Shown: in pieces, positions 29,856 to 34,313 of the stretch
Numbering within the stretch: the stretch's first letter is position 1
How the letters are laid out: every line of letters begins with the position of its first letter
Source of the DNA: Microcaldota archaeon
GTDB taxonomy: Archaea > Micrarchaeota > Micrarchaeia > Micrarchaeales > Micrarchaeaceae
Assembly: GCA_021787495.1 (NCBI GenBank)
Contig: JAJYLX010000001.1
Coordinates: 62,001-126,000 of the forward strand
DNA: 64,000 nt
Direction of reading: 5' to 3'
Position numbers and translations under genes: made by a program
The notes under the pieces: generated by a model
The model's database searches: none
What the model saw: only the letters and a program-made list of their open reading frames with translations
Told to the model about the DNA's origin: nothing

Positions 29856-30368
29856 TCACTTCGGCAGCACGGGCCTTAGGTAGACGCACGGGAACCCCGG
29901 GTTTGACGGGCAGCTCAGCTGGTTGCTCACATTGACTATGTATGTCGCGGACGATTCTATCGCAGACAGGTTGCCGCTGACGTTGACCAGCGAGTACGCG
30001 GTCACATAGCTGTTTCCGGAGCCGGTGCTTATTACGAACGTTATCTGCCTGCCAGGGGTGTTGTTCAGCGTCCCGACGTATATGCTCTGGACGTTCTGCG
30101 GGACGGATATGCTTGTATACTGCTGCGCGGGATAGCCCTGCGAGGCGACGAACGCGGCGACTGCCGCAAGCTTATTGGCGGTTCCCTGCGCCTGCATCGC
30201 ATACAGCGAGGCTCCGGAAGACGACATCTGCACGAACGCGAGCGTAACTATCGGCAGCAGAATTATTATCCCGAATGAGAGTATTATGAGCAGTTCCAGG
30301 CTCGACTGCAACGGTCTCCCACCTGCAGCTTTGCACCGGTTGCCGCGGCTTATGGTCGGCACGATCAC
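29856..30368 (-). CDS. Class III signal peptide (pilin-like) protein, second of a tandem pair
   Basis: This protein of about 170 aa has a basic leader (SRGNRCKAAGGRPL) then QSSLELLIILSFGIIILLPI, a pilin-type cleavage site and hydrophobic helix. The exported part is Ser/Ala/Val-rich and ends CPSNPGFPCVYLRPVLPK. It is about 40-50% alike with the upstream gene product by eye, so the two arose by tandem duplication. GTG 30368 lies 4 nt after the upstream stop (TGA at 30373-30375), suggesting translational coupling; a TTG at 30383 or GTG at 30362 are alternatives. Role: minor pilin or adhesin-like filament component is the inference. Confidence 0.75.
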   Translation of the reverse strand: MIVPTISRGNRCKAAGGRPLQSSLELLIILSFGIIILLPIVTLAFVQMSSSGASLYAMQAQGTANKLAAVAAFVASQGYPAQQYTSISVPQNVQSIYVGTLNNTPGRQITFVISTGSGNSYVTAYSLVNVSGNLSAIESSATYIVNVSNQLSCPSNPGFPCVYLRPVLPK

Positions 30369-30372
30369 ACCG

Positions 30373-30855
30373 TCAAGACGCAAACCTTACGAAGGCGCAT
30401 GGCGCCCCTATGCCACGGGTGGCGGGGCAGATCTTGGTCGCGCTCACGTTGATGAGATATGTGGCTGGGCCCTGGATGCCCGGCAGGTACCCGCTTATAT
30501 TGATCGGCGTGTAGGCAGTTATGTAGCTTTTCCCGTTGTTCGTATCCACCACGAATATGACCTCGTTGCCTATACCGTTGTAGCTCAGGTTGCCGACGTA
30601 CACCGCCTGGACGCCCTGCGGCACCTCCAGCAGCAGGGTCTGCCTCGCCGGATAGCCCTGCGAGGCGACCTGCGTGGCTATGGCCGCGAGCTTTTCTGCG
30701 GAGGTCGCCGCCTCGCTGGTAGCCAGAGTGGTATTGCTGTTCGACACCTGCACGAACGCGAGCGTAACTATCGGCAGCAGTATCATGAGCCCGAATGACA
30801 GGGTGATGATGAGCTCCAGGCTCGACTGTCCAAGTGCCGCCGCGCACGTTTTCAT
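30373..30855 (-). CDS. Class III signal peptide (pilin-like) protein, first of a tandem pair
   Basis: This 160-aa protein has leader MKTCAAALG followed by QSSLELIITLSFGLMILLPI, a pilin-type signal. The mature part contains GYPARQTLLLEVPQGVQAVY, GNEVIFVVDTNNGKSYITAY, and ends with a Cys pair (CPATRGIGAPC) as in its paralogue at 29856. ATG 30855 is used; the frame is open to 30870. It overlaps the end of the CBS-domain gene by 4 nt and is probably co-transcribed with it. Confidence 0.77.
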   Translation of the reverse strand: MKTCAAALGQSSLELIITLSFGLMILLPIVTLAFVQVSNSNTTLATSEAATSAEKLAAIATQVASQGYPARQTLLLEVPQGVQAVYVGNLSYNGIGNEVIFVVDTNNGKSYITAYTPINISGYLPGIQGPATYLINVSATKICPATRGIGAPCAFVRFAS

Positions 30856-32009
30856 TCTATGACCCTCCACCTGTCCCTCGCCTTCCTCGAGCCCAGCACC
30901 TTCTCCTTCTCCTTGATCATGTCGCGCTTCAGCAGCGCAATCGCCTCCCTGAACGTCCTCTCGAGCAGGAAATCAGTTATGTGCGCGGATATCGTGCTGC
31001 CGTTGCTTATCGCGGCCCTGGCATTGATGTCATACCTGTTGCCCTTGATGCGCTTGACATGGAGCGTAACATGGTCTATCTTGAGCTCCTTGCCTTCGAG
31101 CTTCGAGACCAGGTCCCTGAGCCCCCCTCTTATGCCCTGTTCATATTCCATCATGTCGTCGTCGAGTCCCGAGACGAAGATCCTGCTCTCCTCTATCCTC
31201 CTTCGCGCAGCGGCTGCCTCGAGTATATCACCCATCGTCAGCATGCCTATTGGCTGTTCGCGCCCGTCAGTAACGATGAGGGAGGAGATTTCGTTCTCTA
31301 TCATGCTCCTCGCGGCGTATGCGAGGTCCCTGTCCTGGCTGAGCGTCCTCGGGTTGGTCTCGATTATGCCAGATATCTCGGCATCGGCAGGAGACCTCCT
31401 GCTCGACTTCATCTCGGGCAGTGCCTCGTTCTCAACCGAGTAATTCTTTATCAGCGTGAAGTAGGTCAGCAGCCCAGCGAACTTCCCGTCCCTGAGGACC
31501 AGGAGCCTGCTTATCCTGTTGTTCTCCATCACGGCCTTCGCCTGTGCCAATGCGATGCCGTCATTCACCGCCACCACCGGCGAGCTCATTGCCTCACTGA
31601 CCTTTATGTCATTCAGCATCCTCAGCGAGAGCATGACCTTGATCAGCGTGCTCCTGTCGAGCACCCCGATTATCTGCCCGTTCTCGACAACTGGCAGTGC
31701 CTTGACCTTCGCCTTCGAGAAACCCAGTATCACGTCGTCTATCCGCGTGCTCCTCTCCAGCCTTGGCGCTTTGCTGACGTACTTCTCTACCGTCTGATTT
31801 TTGCCGAACGTGAGCGGCCCCCTGGCCCTGTACATGCTCCTCGAATCGACCATCCCGTAATACTGCCCGTTCCTGTTCACTATCAGGGCGGAATGCTTGT
31901 CAAGCAGCGGCAGCACGCTTGATATCTGCGCCTTCACGTCGATCGTCTCGGTCTCCGCAACAAGCCCCCTTGGGACGCCCTCCTCTTCCTCGAATTTTAT
32001 ATCGTACAT
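30852..32009 (-). CDS. Four CBS domains fused to a ribosome-hibernation (RaiA/HPF)-like domain
   Basis: This 385-aa protein carries four CBS motifs, about residues 15-65, 75-130, 138-190 and 215-270; CBS pairs bind adenine nucleotides. Residues about 275-385 read as alpha-beta-beta-beta-alpha with KIDHVTLHVKRIKGNRYDIN and LLERTFREAIALLKRDMIKE, the pattern of the RaiA/HPF/YfiA fold that sits in the 30S decoding site of dormant ribosomes. I infer a nucleotide-sensing hibernation factor. ATG 32009 has a minus-strand TATA element (TATTTATA near 32027) about 25 nt upstream. It is followed by the pilin-like pair with a 4-nt overlap. Confidence 0.78.
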   Translation of the reverse strand: MYDIKFEEEEGVPRGLVAETETIDVKAQISSVLPLLDKHSALIVNRNGQYYGMVDSRSMYRARGPLTFGKNQTVEKYVSKAPRLERSTRIDDVILGFSKAKVKALPVVENGQIIGVLDRSTLIKVMLSLRMLNDIKVSEAMSSPVVAVNDGIALAQAKAVMENNRISRLLVLRDGKFAGLLTYFTLIKNYSVENEALPEMKSSRRSPADAEISGIIETNPRTLSQDRDLAYAARSMIENEISSLIVTDGREQPIGMLTMGDILEAAAARRRIEESRIFVSGLDDDMMEYEQGIRGGLRDLVSKLEGKELKIDHVTLHVKRIKGNRYDINARAAISNGSTISAHITDFLLERTFREAIALLKRDMIKEKEKVLGSRKARDRWRVIE

Positions 32010-32084: not shown

Positions 32085-32155
32085 GCCAGGATGGCAGATC
32101 AGCTATGCGGCCGCCTGCAGAGCGGCAAAGGAGGGTGCGACTCCCTCTCCTGGCT
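32085..32155 (+). tRNA. tRNA-Cys (anticodon GCA)
   Basis: This 71-nt cloverleaf has acceptor GCCAGGA/TCCTGGC, anticodon stem GCCGC/GCGGC with loop CTGCAGA (anticodon GCA), and T arm GAGGG-TGCGACT-CCCTC. The discriminator base is U73, the identity base for cysteine. The D stem is weak (3 bp). CCA is not encoded. It is convergent with the TauE-like gene, whose stop is 26 nt away. Confidence 0.93.
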
Positions 32156-32180
32156 ATATTTTGTGGAAAGGGCTCAAAAT

Positions 32181-32984
32181 TCAGAGGGCACTAAACAGCA
32201 GGACCGCTGCGAGCGCGACAAGGATCACGGAGATTGCAACCTTCAGCTTTGGCAGGCTTGTCTTATGCGACATCTGCGATCCAACTCTGGCCCCGATGAA
32301 CACCGCGACCGCGAGAGGTAGCGCTATCCATATATTCAGCGGGTCTCCGCCAGCAATATGGCCTGCAAGTCCCATCAGGGAGGAGACGCCCGCGTAGACT
32401 GTGGTTATGCCTATCGTTATCCGCATCGGAACTCTGAAAAGCAGTATGAGCACGGGCAACAAGAACAACCCCCCTCCTATGCCGAGCGTACCGGCGACGA
32501 AGCCGAGCCCCAGCACCGCAGGTATCAATATTCCGAGTGATACCGAGTAATGGTGCTCACCGTATGACCTATCCCAAACAAATAGCTTGGGAATGCGCGG
32601 GTGTATTCTCCCCTCCTTGCTATGGTCATACTTATAGATCAAGAATGCGGAGATGCACAGGAATGCGGCGAAGGTAATTGTGACAGCTTGGGCACTAATA
32701 AGGTGCGCCGCGTACCCCCCGAAGAATGCCCCAATGGCCACAGGGGGCACCAGGAAAGGGAGCAGGCGCCAGTCTATGGTCTTCTTTCCGTGGAAGACGA
32801 TTGCCGCCGAAAGGGTCGAAACGGCAATCATGAACAGGCTTATCGTAGAGGCCTCGTGTATGCCGACTCCAGCGATTTCAAGCACGGGGACGTAAGCCGT
32901 GCCACCGCCCATTCCAATCATTGCGAAAGGCGCCGCCAGCGCCATTAGCACCACAGACAGCAGGAGAAGTATGATCGTCTCCAT
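32181..32984 (-). CDS. TauE/SafE family anion (sulfite/organosulfonate) exporter
   Basis: This 267-aa membrane protein has about 8 TM helices, with the twin family motifs GMGGGTAYVPVL near residue 24 and GTLGIGGGLFLLPVLI near 165. The family exports sulfite, sulfoacetate and related anions or takes up sulfur compounds. It is the last gene of a minus-strand run ArsR, FmdE-like, TauE/SafE, which supports a sulfur- or metal-related role. Confidence 0.9.
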   Translation of the reverse strand: METIILLLLSVVLMALAAPFAMIGMGGGTAYVPVLEIAGVGIHEASTISLFMIAVSTLSAAIVFHGKKTIDWRLLPFLVPPVAIGAFFGGYAAHLISAQAVTITFAAFLCISAFLIYKYDHSKEGRIHPRIPKLFVWDRSYGEHHYSVSLGILIPAVLGLGFVAGTLGIGGGLFLLPVLILLFRVPMRITIGITTVYAGVSSLMGLAGHIAGGDPLNIWIALPLAVAVFIGARVGSQMSHKTSLPKLKVAISVILVALAAVLLFSAL

Positions 32985-32994
32985 TCGAGCTGCC

Positions 32995-33609
32995 TCATCG
33001 CGCGTATCCGCTGCATGGTATGCAATACGGCTCGTTGTCCACTAAACGCACGTACCGCTCGAAGACATATTCGCCGCACTTTGTGCATCTCACCTTGTTG
33101 AACGACCCTTTCGGCGGCGCGAACCTGTAATCTGGCAGCCTCTCAATTTTGAAGACCCTCCAGTCGGATTGCCCATACATCCATTTTATGGCCGCATCGG
33201 TCACGCCCGCGGGGATGCCAGAAGGCTCGACCCCCTTCTTTCTGTAGGAGAAAAACTCGTTCTTACCGAATTCGTCGGAGAATTCCGGCGTGATAGAGAT
33301 GCGCACTGCTGCCTTTCCATGCATGTAGAACGTGGCTGCCAGCTTGCCCCAGAATGTCTTTTCAATCAGCGATTTTCCATAGGTGGCGCCGGTCGCGACC
33401 TGGATGCCATCCATGAGGCATGTCTGCGGGTGGCCGACGCCCAGCTCGGGGATTACAAAGAAACCGTGGTCCTTTTCATGCTCTGTGTCAAGTTCTTTCA
33501 TCGCCAGCCTTGCCATCCTGTAGCCAAGCGGCATGAACGGGCAGCGGTGACCGTGGAACTCCCACGCCCATTCGGGCGGTGATATATCTGCGGTTATATC
33601 GCCTTTCAT
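32995..33609 (-). CDS. FmdE-like protein with C-terminal zinc ribbon
   Basis: This 204-aa protein matches the FmdE/TraR-type family named after formylmethanofuran dehydrogenase subunit E: EFHGHRCPFMPLGYRMARLA at the N-terminus (Cys/His metal site), HPQTCLMDGIQVATGATYGK and a C-terminal ribbon with CTKCGEYVFE and CIPCSG. No other Fmd/Fwd subunit or methanogenesis gene is present, so this is the stand-alone form, thought to bind metal or a redox ligand. It is located between ArsR and TauE/SafE with 10-11 nt gaps, one operon. Confidence 0.85.
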   Translation of the reverse strand: MKGDITADISPPEWAWEFHGHRCPFMPLGYRMARLAMKELDTEHEKDHGFFVIPELGVGHPQTCLMDGIQVATGATYGKSLIEKTFWGKLAATFYMHGKAAVRISITPEFSDEFGKNEFFSYRKKGVEPSGIPAGVTDAAIKWMYGQSDWRVFKIERLPDYRFAPPKGSFNKVRCTKCGEYVFERYVRLVDNEPYCIPCSGYAR

Positions 33610-33620
33610 ATACTCACTCT

Positions 33621-33899
33621 CTATAATCGTTTGTGGTCGGGAGCGCAGCCGAACATCTGCCGCACGCGGATGTCGGTTATCCTGTATATAACCTTTTTCC
33701 CATCCCTCCTGTTAGAGAGGATCCCTATCCTCGTCAGATACTTCAGTTGCAGTGAGGTCGTGGGCTGCGCCCGCTTGACCAATTCTGGTAGTTCGCAGGC
33801 GCATTTCTCCCCAGTCGAGAGTGCCTTGACTATCCCGTACCTAGTTTCATCACCTAGGGCCTTGAAGAGTGCGTATTCGTATTGTCTCTTGATGGTCAT
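33621..33899 (-). CDS. ArsR-family winged-helix transcriptional regulator
   Basis: This 92-aa protein has KALGDETRYGIVKALSTGE, the recognition-helix region RAQPTTSLQLKYLTRIGIL and a wing RRDGKKVIYRI. Cys33 and Cys35 (EKCACEL) occupy the alpha-3 position that binds thiophilic metals or persulfide in ArsR/CadC and SqrR-type relatives; another Cys lies near the C-terminus (MFGCAP). ATG 33899 is taken as the start because the TATA box lies at leaderless distance; ATG 33905 is possible. It probably represses its own operon and the divergent DsrE-like gene through the palindrome at 33904-33923. Confidence 0.87.
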   Translation of the reverse strand: MTIKRQYEYALFKALGDETRYGIVKALSTGEKCACELPELVKRAQPTTSLQLKYLTRIGILSNRRDGKKVIYRITDIRVRQMFGCAPDHKRL

Positions 33900-33903
33900 A
33901 AAC

Positions 33904-33923
33904 ATATTTATCTACATAAATAT
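33904..33923. promoter_or_regulatory. Perfect palindrome between arsR-like and dsrE-like genes (candidate operator)
   Basis: ATATTTAT-CTAC-ATAAATAT is a perfect 8-bp inverted repeat with a 4-nt spacer. It overlaps the TATA region of both divergent genes (GATTTATATATTTATG on the minus strand, ATATATAAATCC on the plus strand). Size and symmetry fit an ArsR-type operator (12-2-12-like AT-rich dyads). Assignment is by position. Confidence 0.6.
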
Positions 33924-33959
33924 ATAAATCCAGTTGCAGATAACTACGCAGTGGTCTGA

Positions 33960-34313
33960 ATGCCAGGGAAAATAGCCATAGTGATAGCCTCTGACTGGGA
34001 CCAGGAGCTGAAGGTGAAATCTGGATTGCATCTGGCCAAGCGCATATATGGGGCAAGGCAGGAAAATGGGATTGATGCGGTCGAAGTGTTCCTTTATGCA
34101 GGTGGATCAAAGCTCCTGCAGTCGTTGCCGGAAGAGTTTGCGGGCCTCCTGAGAATGCTCAGGGAAGATGGTATAATTCTGAAGGTGTGCACAACCGAGG
34201 CGCGTTCGTGGGGCCTCGAGCAAAGCGCGAGGGAGCACGGGATATCCATGGAGTTCGCGAGGGATGCGTTCTCGAGGTACGCCACGGATGGTTTTACGGT
34301 ATTCACGTTCTGA
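33960..34313 (+). CDS. DsrE/DsrF-like sulfur-relay family protein
   Basis: This 117-aa protein begins PGKIAIVIASDWDQELKVKS and has LKVCTTEARSWGLEQSAREHG, where Cys is the conserved sulfur-carrying position, then FARDAFSRYATDGFTVFTF. This matches the archaeal DsrE-like family related to DsrE, TusD and YchN. It is divergent from arsR-like across a shared operator, supporting a role in handling sulfane sulfur or related stress. ATG 33960. Confidence 0.8.
   Translation: MPGKIAIVIASDWDQELKVKSGLHLAKRIYGARQENGIDAVEVFLYAGGSKLLQSLPEEFAGLLRMLREDGIILKVCTTEARSWGLEQSAREHGISMEFARDAFSRYATDGFTVFTF

Follow-up and report, generated by a model that had tools for sequence, protein, structure and literature searches.

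What brings an ArsR-type repressor, an FmdE-family protein, a TauE/SafE-family membrane protein and a DsrE-like protein together around one palindrome in a Microcaldota archaeon? The genes concerned lie in the 64,000-nucleotide (nt) stretch analysed here (contig JAJYLX010000001.1, positions 62,001 to 126,000; hereafter the window), which belongs to an assembly of 852 kb that is 86% complete. An earlier note on this DNA had described them as a sulfur-handling circuit under a repressor. The repressor gene, the operon and the divergent partner of that description stand and its operator is well supported, whereas sulfur relay and sulfite transport as the prime reading now receive less support, since relatives of these proteins are found in arsenic (ars) or metal-resistance clusters. 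On balance, we lean towards the view that the module is a metalloid-responsive, ars-type operon without ACR3 in a Micrarchaeota genome. This view is favoured because relatives of FmdE, TauE and the DsrE-like protein recur in arsenic or metal-resistance clusters, and its observed basis comprises the gene order, the conservation of the operator and of ligand residues, and the recurrence of the same families beside ars genes in bacteria as well as archaea. The data suggest that the FmdE and DsrE proteins of this locus deal with toxic metalloids rather than with methane or the usual sulfur metabolism.

The operon and its divergent gene

The features of the locus are listed below, with the basis of each assignment in brackets.

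33960-34313, plus strand: divergent gene for a DsrE-fold protein with a single invariant cysteine, Cys77 (fold model, alignment)
33919-33928: AT-rich element AATATATAAA, TATA-like by eye and unscored, about 25 nt from 33899, overlapping the right (plus-strand) arm of the palindrome
33904-33923: candidate palindromic operator ATATTTA-N6-TAAATAT, between both promoters (exact sequence, conservation)
33621-33905, minus strand: gene for an ArsR/SmtB-type repressor with a CxC motif, likelier start at 33899 (family models, alignment, orthologue starts)
32995-33609, minus strand: gene for an FmdE-family protein with a C-terminal zinc-finger region, of the Ta1109/2GVI type (PF02663, 2gvi_A)
32181-32984, minus strand: gene for a TauE/SafE-family membrane protein, pair partner of FmdE (PF01925)
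32085-32155, plus strand: tRNA-Cys(gca), convergent neighbour outside the module

The ArsR, FmdE and TauE genes are separated by gaps of 11 nt and 10 nt, respectively, which is consistent with a single transcript and bears out the operon proposed earlier; the DsrE-like gene is indeed divergent from it across the palindrome. The repressor scores above cut-off with the helix-turn-helix model HTH_5 and reaches 76.1 bits (cut-off 55) with the ArsR/SmtB family model NF033788. A PADLOC match of the same protein reflects merely Csa3-type helix-turn-helix similarity and was disregarded. The first ATG of the gene (33905) falls within the palindrome, and translation more likely starts at the second in-frame ATG (33899), because most orthologues start at or near the place of the latter.

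The FmdE protein (PF02663, 80.6 bits) matches Ta1109 of Thermoplasma acidophilum (2gvi_A, E=2e-51), with which it shares the two-domain architecture and the metal ligands. Its residues H19, H21, C23 and C64, forming an H-x-H-x-C ... C site, correspond to the zinc site His16, His18, Cys20 and Cys61 of Ta1109 and are invariant in all 15 aligned sequences, which include both subfamilies of the protein. The suggestion that FmdE may carry a metal ligand is therefore well founded. The crystal paper on Ta1109 (2GVI) describes this zinc site (H16, H18, C20, C61) together with an unknown ligand 1.8 Å from Cys61, and zinc or nickel is bound by FmdE homologues in crystals. It was a mistake to call FmdE without Fmd/Fwd genes unusual: according to the 2010 structure paper on PF02663, only 13 of 208 members adjoin fmd genes, and most adjoin metal-ion transporter genes (PMC2954224). 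No fmd or fwd gene was seen among the seven neighbouring proteins scanned, no genome-wide search having been made. The TauE/SafE protein scores 135.7 bits with PF01925 (cut-off 32.6). We know of no established role for FmdE outside fmd operons, nor for TauE and DsrE-like proteins of this kind.

The DsrE assignment is weak by sequence, with 18.9 bits for PF02635 (below the cut-off of 22.7), and clear by fold. The model of the protein, with a predicted local distance difference test (pLDDT) score of 84.7, aligns with DsrE-fold chains at Z 12-17 and a root-mean-square deviation of 1.8-2.5 over 99-111 residues in the nine matches listed, including 14.1 to 3mc3. The sulfur carriers TusBCD and DsrEFH share the fold (Z 12.3 and 12.2), but they are only 15-17% identical and have another gene context, and the Pfam DsrE score of our protein is under the cut-off. 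Residue C77 and the motif FARDAFSRY are common to all nine aligned sequences, an alignment from which the homologue at L042 was excluded on account of two in-frame stops.

The palindrome and the repressor

The sequence ATATTTAT-CTAC-ATAAATAT at 33904-33923 is an exact palindrome, as had been claimed. As a stand-alone signal within the window it was rejected as evidence, being at chance level in simulations and shuffles: the window holds four perfect palindromes with 8-nt arms and spacers of 3-6 nt, where 20 first-order simulations give 4.65 on average, and two matches to the N6 pattern with up to three mismatches, a number equalled or exceeded in nine of 100 shuffles. For the N4 pattern with up to two mismatches, none of 100 shuffles contained a match. 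The operator reading rests instead on the palindrome being kept at the same promoter position in relatives. Among 13 promoters of ArsR homologues, taken from the same genome and 11 others, the pattern ATATTTA-N6-TAAATAT stands just before the ArsR start in eight, namely in the window, in five orthologues (G102, G095, G022, G016 and G051), in a paralogue from the same genome and in its counterpart in G002. The promoters of G071, G178, G196, G189 and G187, where the exact pattern is missing at that place, were excluded from the conservation count; they belong to the most distant ArsR homologues (41-47% identical). Compared pairwise, the eight promoters have fully identical arms (100%); identity reaches 54% for the spacer, 45% for the 20 nt upstream, 25% for the next 20 nt upstream and 41% for the 12 nt downstream.

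Across 20 other genomes there are 14 sites with the exact pattern, against three when it is read backwards. Six of these sites are ArsR promoters, found in six of the seven genomes that hold such an ArsR; five lie elsewhere in ArsR-holding genomes and the remaining three in two of the 13 ArsR-negative genomes. The genome under study has four exact sites, two of which are ArsR promoters. That the palindrome might be an accident of AT-rich promoter elements and not an operator could be argued from its chance-level frequency in the window, from the overlap of one arm with a TATA-like element, and from the eight of 14 sites that are not at an ArsR gene. We nevertheless consider this very improbable, as the arms are identical in eight out of eight promoters while spacer and flanks vary, as the pattern is at ArsR in nearly every ArsR-positive genome and present at all in so few ArsR-negative ones, and as it outnumbers its backwards-read control. 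The palindrome is thus well supported as the putative ArsR operator, the binding itself being predicted from position and conservation. The earlier note would have abandoned this reading had the palindrome not been conserved upstream of orthologues and the protein not bound it; on the sequence half of that test, the palindrome is conserved upstream of orthologues.

The site in the same genome before a gene for a 349-residue membrane protein (G000:C10:34885) was rejected as evidence for a wider regulon, as this gene is widespread and the homologue in G002 (C31:13892) lacks the site. The protein itself (L057:468-1514, G000:C10:33852-34898) has no Pfam or NCBIfam match; it contains an H-G-I-T-P-D-E-H motif and occurs in 61 of 99 related genomes. 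At a further site in the same genome, C5:1192, no open reading frame (ORF) of at least 50 residues starts within 150 nt. Sites beside VirB2/pilin-like genes in G102 and G016 look unrelated by eye. Separately, a related palindrome, ATATTTAC-N4-GTAAATAT, was observed near genes that by eye are pilin/VirB2-like or VirB11-like (L065, L071 and L072) and, in L067, before an ORF of 160 residues; it is possibly the operator of another regulator.

The CxC motif of the repressor (C35/C37 counted from the first ATG, C33/C35 from the second) lies at the classic metal-binding place of ArsR proteins, where the CxC of Escherichia coli ArsR binds As(III), and is invariant in all 14 aligned sequences, including ArsRs from ars clusters. 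The window protein and two paralogues have in common a third cysteine near the C-terminus (C85, numbered from the second ATG), which would make a two-site cysteine sensor possible for these three. The persulfide-sensing repressors BigR and SqrR, which carry a second, C-terminal cysteine and control sulfur genes, belong to the ArsR family as well. In contrast to these, however, the CxC motif is kept throughout the present group, the C-terminal cysteine is absent from all five orthologues that share the operon, and the BigR equivalog model for sulfite/persulfide sensors, NF040642, gives only 40.7 bits, far under its cut-off of 155. The two paralogues, which have the CxC motif and the same operator (L047:4756-5763, G000:C10, in the same genome; L048:5007-5939, G002:C31), each directly precede a gene whose product is a protein disulfide oxidoreductase; the G000 copy scores 265 bits with TIGR02187, and the one in G002 looks similar by eye. 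Such a paralogous ArsR may share or compete for the same operator.

Gene neighbourhoods in Micrarchaeota and beyond

A search of relatives for the same gene set and palindrome, as advised in the earlier note, recovered both in Micrarchaeota, with a SLAC1/TDT channel gene added and with partial losses. The DsrE-like gene occurs in six of 197 genomes and is divergent from ArsR in five; the sixth (G062) has a C-terminal fragment only. The SLAC1/TDT gene, missing from the window, is present in G051 (PF03595, 148 bits), G095, G102, G016 and the partial locus L005. With <-> marking divergence, the set of relatives taken together reads DsrE<->ArsR-SLAC1/TDT-FmdE-TauE; by genome, the order is DsrE<->ArsR-TDT in G102 and G016, DsrE<->ArsR-TDT-FmdE remnant in G095, ArsR-TDT-FmdE-TauE in G051, TDT-FmdE-TauE in L005, and DsrE<->ArsR-SBF transporter in G022. 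The FmdE remnant of G095 comprises the first 37 residues only (L043:5940-6050 / L020:5001-5114); behind it comes a gene for a P-type cation ATPase, and the stretch examined yielded no TauE relative. A transporter of the SBF/ACR3 superfamily in two relatives counts towards the metalloid reading: it directly follows this ArsR in G022 and stands under the same palindrome in G002 (L061:571-1609, G002:C10). The pieces of the module are mobile and partly decaying among relatives.

Outside Micrarchaeota, relatives of a small reference panel were sought by tblastn within 5 kb of FmdE, in a main set of 25 loci (32-75% identical to the window FmdE, 12 of them from searches of the phyla of a Dehalococcoidia and a Thermoplasmata genome) and a second set of 10 loci from the phylum of a Methanoregula genome (36-39% identical). 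References for ACR3, ArsM and ArsD were NCBIfam matches above cut-off, those for ArsP_1, ArsA and DGC Pfam matches; the Micrarchaeota loci L005 and L006 and the FmdE fragments L020, L021 and L022 were left out. The counts are lower bounds, because the panel is small and contigs break off within some loci. TauE lies near FmdE at 22 of the 25 main loci and at all 10 of the second set (32 of 35 in total). ArsR was found at 14 and none, ACR3 at seven and one, and any ars-specific gene (ACR3, ArsM, ArsP, ArsD, ArsA, ArsB or ArsC) at eight and one, respectively. By chance ACR3 would be expected in about 0.5-1% of 10-kb loci, a figure that is our own estimate from about one ACR3 per 2-Mb genome and not a random-locus control. 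ACR3 is present above cut-off in eight of the 13 non-Micrarchaeota genomes examined, in four of them within 2 kb of FmdE. In the phylum of Thermoplasma, FmdE-TauE pairs share with the window a nearby ArsR, there about 180 nt away (L089, L090, L091 and L093), but no DsrE relative was found at these loci.

FmdE gave 23 matches on plasmids, and in all four stretches that were opened a TauE gene is near FmdE. On the plasmid of Citrobacter Y19, FmdE and TauE are found among genes for a permease, thioredoxin, rhodanese, a CDF transporter, ACR3, ArsC, ArsA and ArsD. The window TauE itself gave no match to plasmid records. FmdE is rare, with four of 99 related genomes (the genome under study and two fragments included), and with five of 350 genomes in the phylum of the Dehalococcoidia genome, 10 of 292 in that of Thermoplasmata and 11 of 246 in that of Methanoregula (the centre genome counted each time). 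The window FmdE is 74% identical to an FmdE on a 159-kb Dehalococcoidia contig (L009), which suggests a transfer of the gene between domains.

The DsrE-like protein had a single match among 72,556 plasmid records (E<=1e-3), on an Alicyclobacillus plasmid, to a protein 56% identical over its full length and encoded within a full ars operon (ArsD-ArsA-ArsA-DsrE-like-FmdE-ArsR-arsenic transporter-ArsC-ArsC-TrxB). In the phylum to which the Thermoplasmata genome G203 belongs, five of 284 genomes also have it (E<=1e-10); all five loci have the order DsrE-like-FmdE-ArsR, and ArsB adjoins one of them. The triad is consequently seen at six out of six loci of the Alicyclobacillus plasmid and the G203 phylum, with DsrE-like proteins 45-56% identical to that of the window. 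It has in common with the window a related DsrE-like protein, an ArsR and an FmdE-family member, encoded there in a single operon; it differs in that its FmdE is from another subfamily, without a zinc-finger match in the G203 phylum, and in that no TauE relative was found at the five loci of that phylum.

The claim that a tRNA-Cys gene adjoins the module is correct as to position, but its relevance is not upheld. Of five other Micrarchaeota loci with this ArsR, two have a tRNA-Asn and three lack any tRNA in the examined stretch, and none was found at the partial locus L005. The tRNA-Cys looks incidental, and a part in a cysteine/sulfur theme was rejected. Elsewhere in the window, a pair of neighbouring ORFs of similar sequence (29856-30870; 175 and 165 residues) with a hydrophobic N-terminal stretch of the QSSLELII type resemble archaeal pilins/archaellins by eye.

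Metalloid, sulfur or heavy metal

We propose that an ArsR dimer would bind ATATTTA-N6-TAAATAT, which overlaps the promoters of both the ArsR operon and the DsrE-like gene, and would thereby block its own operon and the divergent gene, as position and conservation of the palindrome suggest. ArsR would be released once a thiophilic ligand, with As(III) or a related metalloid as the likeliest, binds its CxC motif, judging from how it aligns with the ArsRs of ars clusters. The next step may fall to FmdE, with its 2-His/2-Cys site, and the single-Cys DsrE-fold protein, which would bind the thiol-bound toxicant or process it, and TauE (with SLAC1/TDT in relatives) may move the product or a counter-ion across the membrane. 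The module resembles canonical ars operons (ArsR-ACR3/ArsB-ArsM/ArsC-ArsD-ArsA) in its CxC ArsR and in that the FmdE, TauE and DsrE-like families recur inside such operons. It differs from them in that no ACR3 was found genome-wide and no ars pump or enzyme among the scanned neighbouring proteins; transport would be left to TauE.

Several observations weigh against a metalloid role. The search for ACR3 in the 86% complete genome gave nothing at E<=1e-10 (ArsB, ArsM and ArsC were not searched there), and the SBF/ACR3-superfamily transporter of relatives was rejected as a true ACR3: the G002 protein reaches 102 bits against 282.8, and the three micrarchaeal proteins aligned lack a cysteine that both ACR3s in the alignment have, which we take to be the transport cysteine. 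No ars-specific gene was found within 5 kb at 17 of the 25 main loci and nine of the 10 second-set loci. The FmdE-TauE genes of a Halorubrum plasmid are accompanied by CDF/ZIP genes and those of a Sulfuricella plasmid by CDF/RND genes, and in Citrobacter freundii p112298-catA, the type of most of the 23 plasmid matches, the 16.6-kb stretch with FmdE-TauE has no annotated ars pump or enzyme genes, in a gene table that is incomplete. The FmdE of the DsrE-FmdE-ArsR triad is only 16-21% identical to the window FmdE (two of six aligned). In one genus the DsrE-like gene is decaying, with two in-frame stops in G102 (L042:5194-5541) and a truncation at residue 63 in G016 (L045:4960-5139), where a tRNA-Asn overlaps the end of the match. 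The paralogous ArsR stands before a disulfide oxidoreductase, a position as compatible with a redox or sulfur signal as with a metalloid, and to our knowledge there is no biochemical evidence for FmdE, TauE or DsrE-like proteins in arsenic handling.

Because of these points a sulfur-stress role retains about a quarter of our belief. ArsR would in that case sense persulfide or polysulfide; under its control would be DsrE as a sulfur carrier and TauE/SLAC1 as proteins that export sulfite or thiosulfate. Such a role is possible though doubtful: the TauE and SLAC1 families include sulfite exporters, the DsrE-like protein has the DsrE/TusD fold and an invariant cysteine, the paralogous ArsR with the same operator precedes the TIGR02187 oxidoreductase, Trx, DsbD or DGC relatives are near FmdE at six of the 25 main-set loci, and the third cysteine is present in the window ArsR and both paralogues. 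Yet this cysteine is missing from every operon-sharing orthologue, the BigR score is far too low, and relatives of DsrE and FmdE sit within ars operons. A general heavy-metal module for zinc, cadmium or copper, in which FmdE would act as a chaperone that binds zinc and TauE would take part in exporting metals or thiols, seems to us unlikely. It would fit the zinc- or nickel-binding crystals of FmdE homologues and the metal-ion transporter genes that adjoin most PF02663 genes according to the 2010 paper (PMC2954224), as well as the CDF or ZIP genes near FmdE-TauE in Halorubrum and Citrobacter Y19, the CDF and RND genes in Sulfuricella and a heavy-metal P-type ATPase at L013. However, CDF, ZIP or heavy-metal P-type ATPase genes were found within 5 kb at two of 25 (both ATPases) and none of 10 loci, against eight and one for ars genes (counts by similarity only, with few references), and the zinc of the crystals may be adventitious.

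Each of the families is already known, and a general link between FmdE and metal transporters is not new, as the 2010 structure paper already reports it (PMC2954224). A link of FmdE-TauE or DsrE-FmdE-ArsR to arsenic clusters was not found in searches of open-access literature, to which most subscription journals do not belong, and the open-access papers that name FmdE and arsenic deal, in the passages concerned, with unrelated topics. In passages of further papers, TauE is listed apart from the ars operon (PMC6016940), an ArsR/SmtB-family gene and TauE share one small Acinetobacter contig apart from the ars contig (PMC10455571, table row), DsrE/F-like genes of Thioalkalivibrio under arsenite go both up and down with an unclear role (PMC6620896), and DsrE and arsenic resistance are separate topics (PMC7325606). 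Studies of metagenome-assembled genomes count FmdE among methanogenesis-related genes (e.g. PMC11264602).

Within the metalloid reading, a more specific and quite speculative route would be that a persulfide carrier (of DsrE or rhodanese type), together with the His/Cys site of FmdE, thiolates As(III), and that the thiolated arsenic is then exported by TauE or SLAC1, whose families export sulfur oxyanions; we regard this as improbable. If true, it would account for the company that a sulfurtransferase-like protein, FmdE and a 'sulfite exporter' keep with ars genes, and for the way in which a reduced archaeon manages without ACR3. Should FmdE-TauE be a metal(loid)-resistance pair, FmdE-based methanogenesis calls in metagenome-assembled genomes would need care. 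In that case a cross-domain resistance module with testable ligands, namely H19, H21, C23 and C64 of FmdE, C77 of the DsrE-like protein and the CxC motif of ArsR, would also become open to study in laboratory strains.

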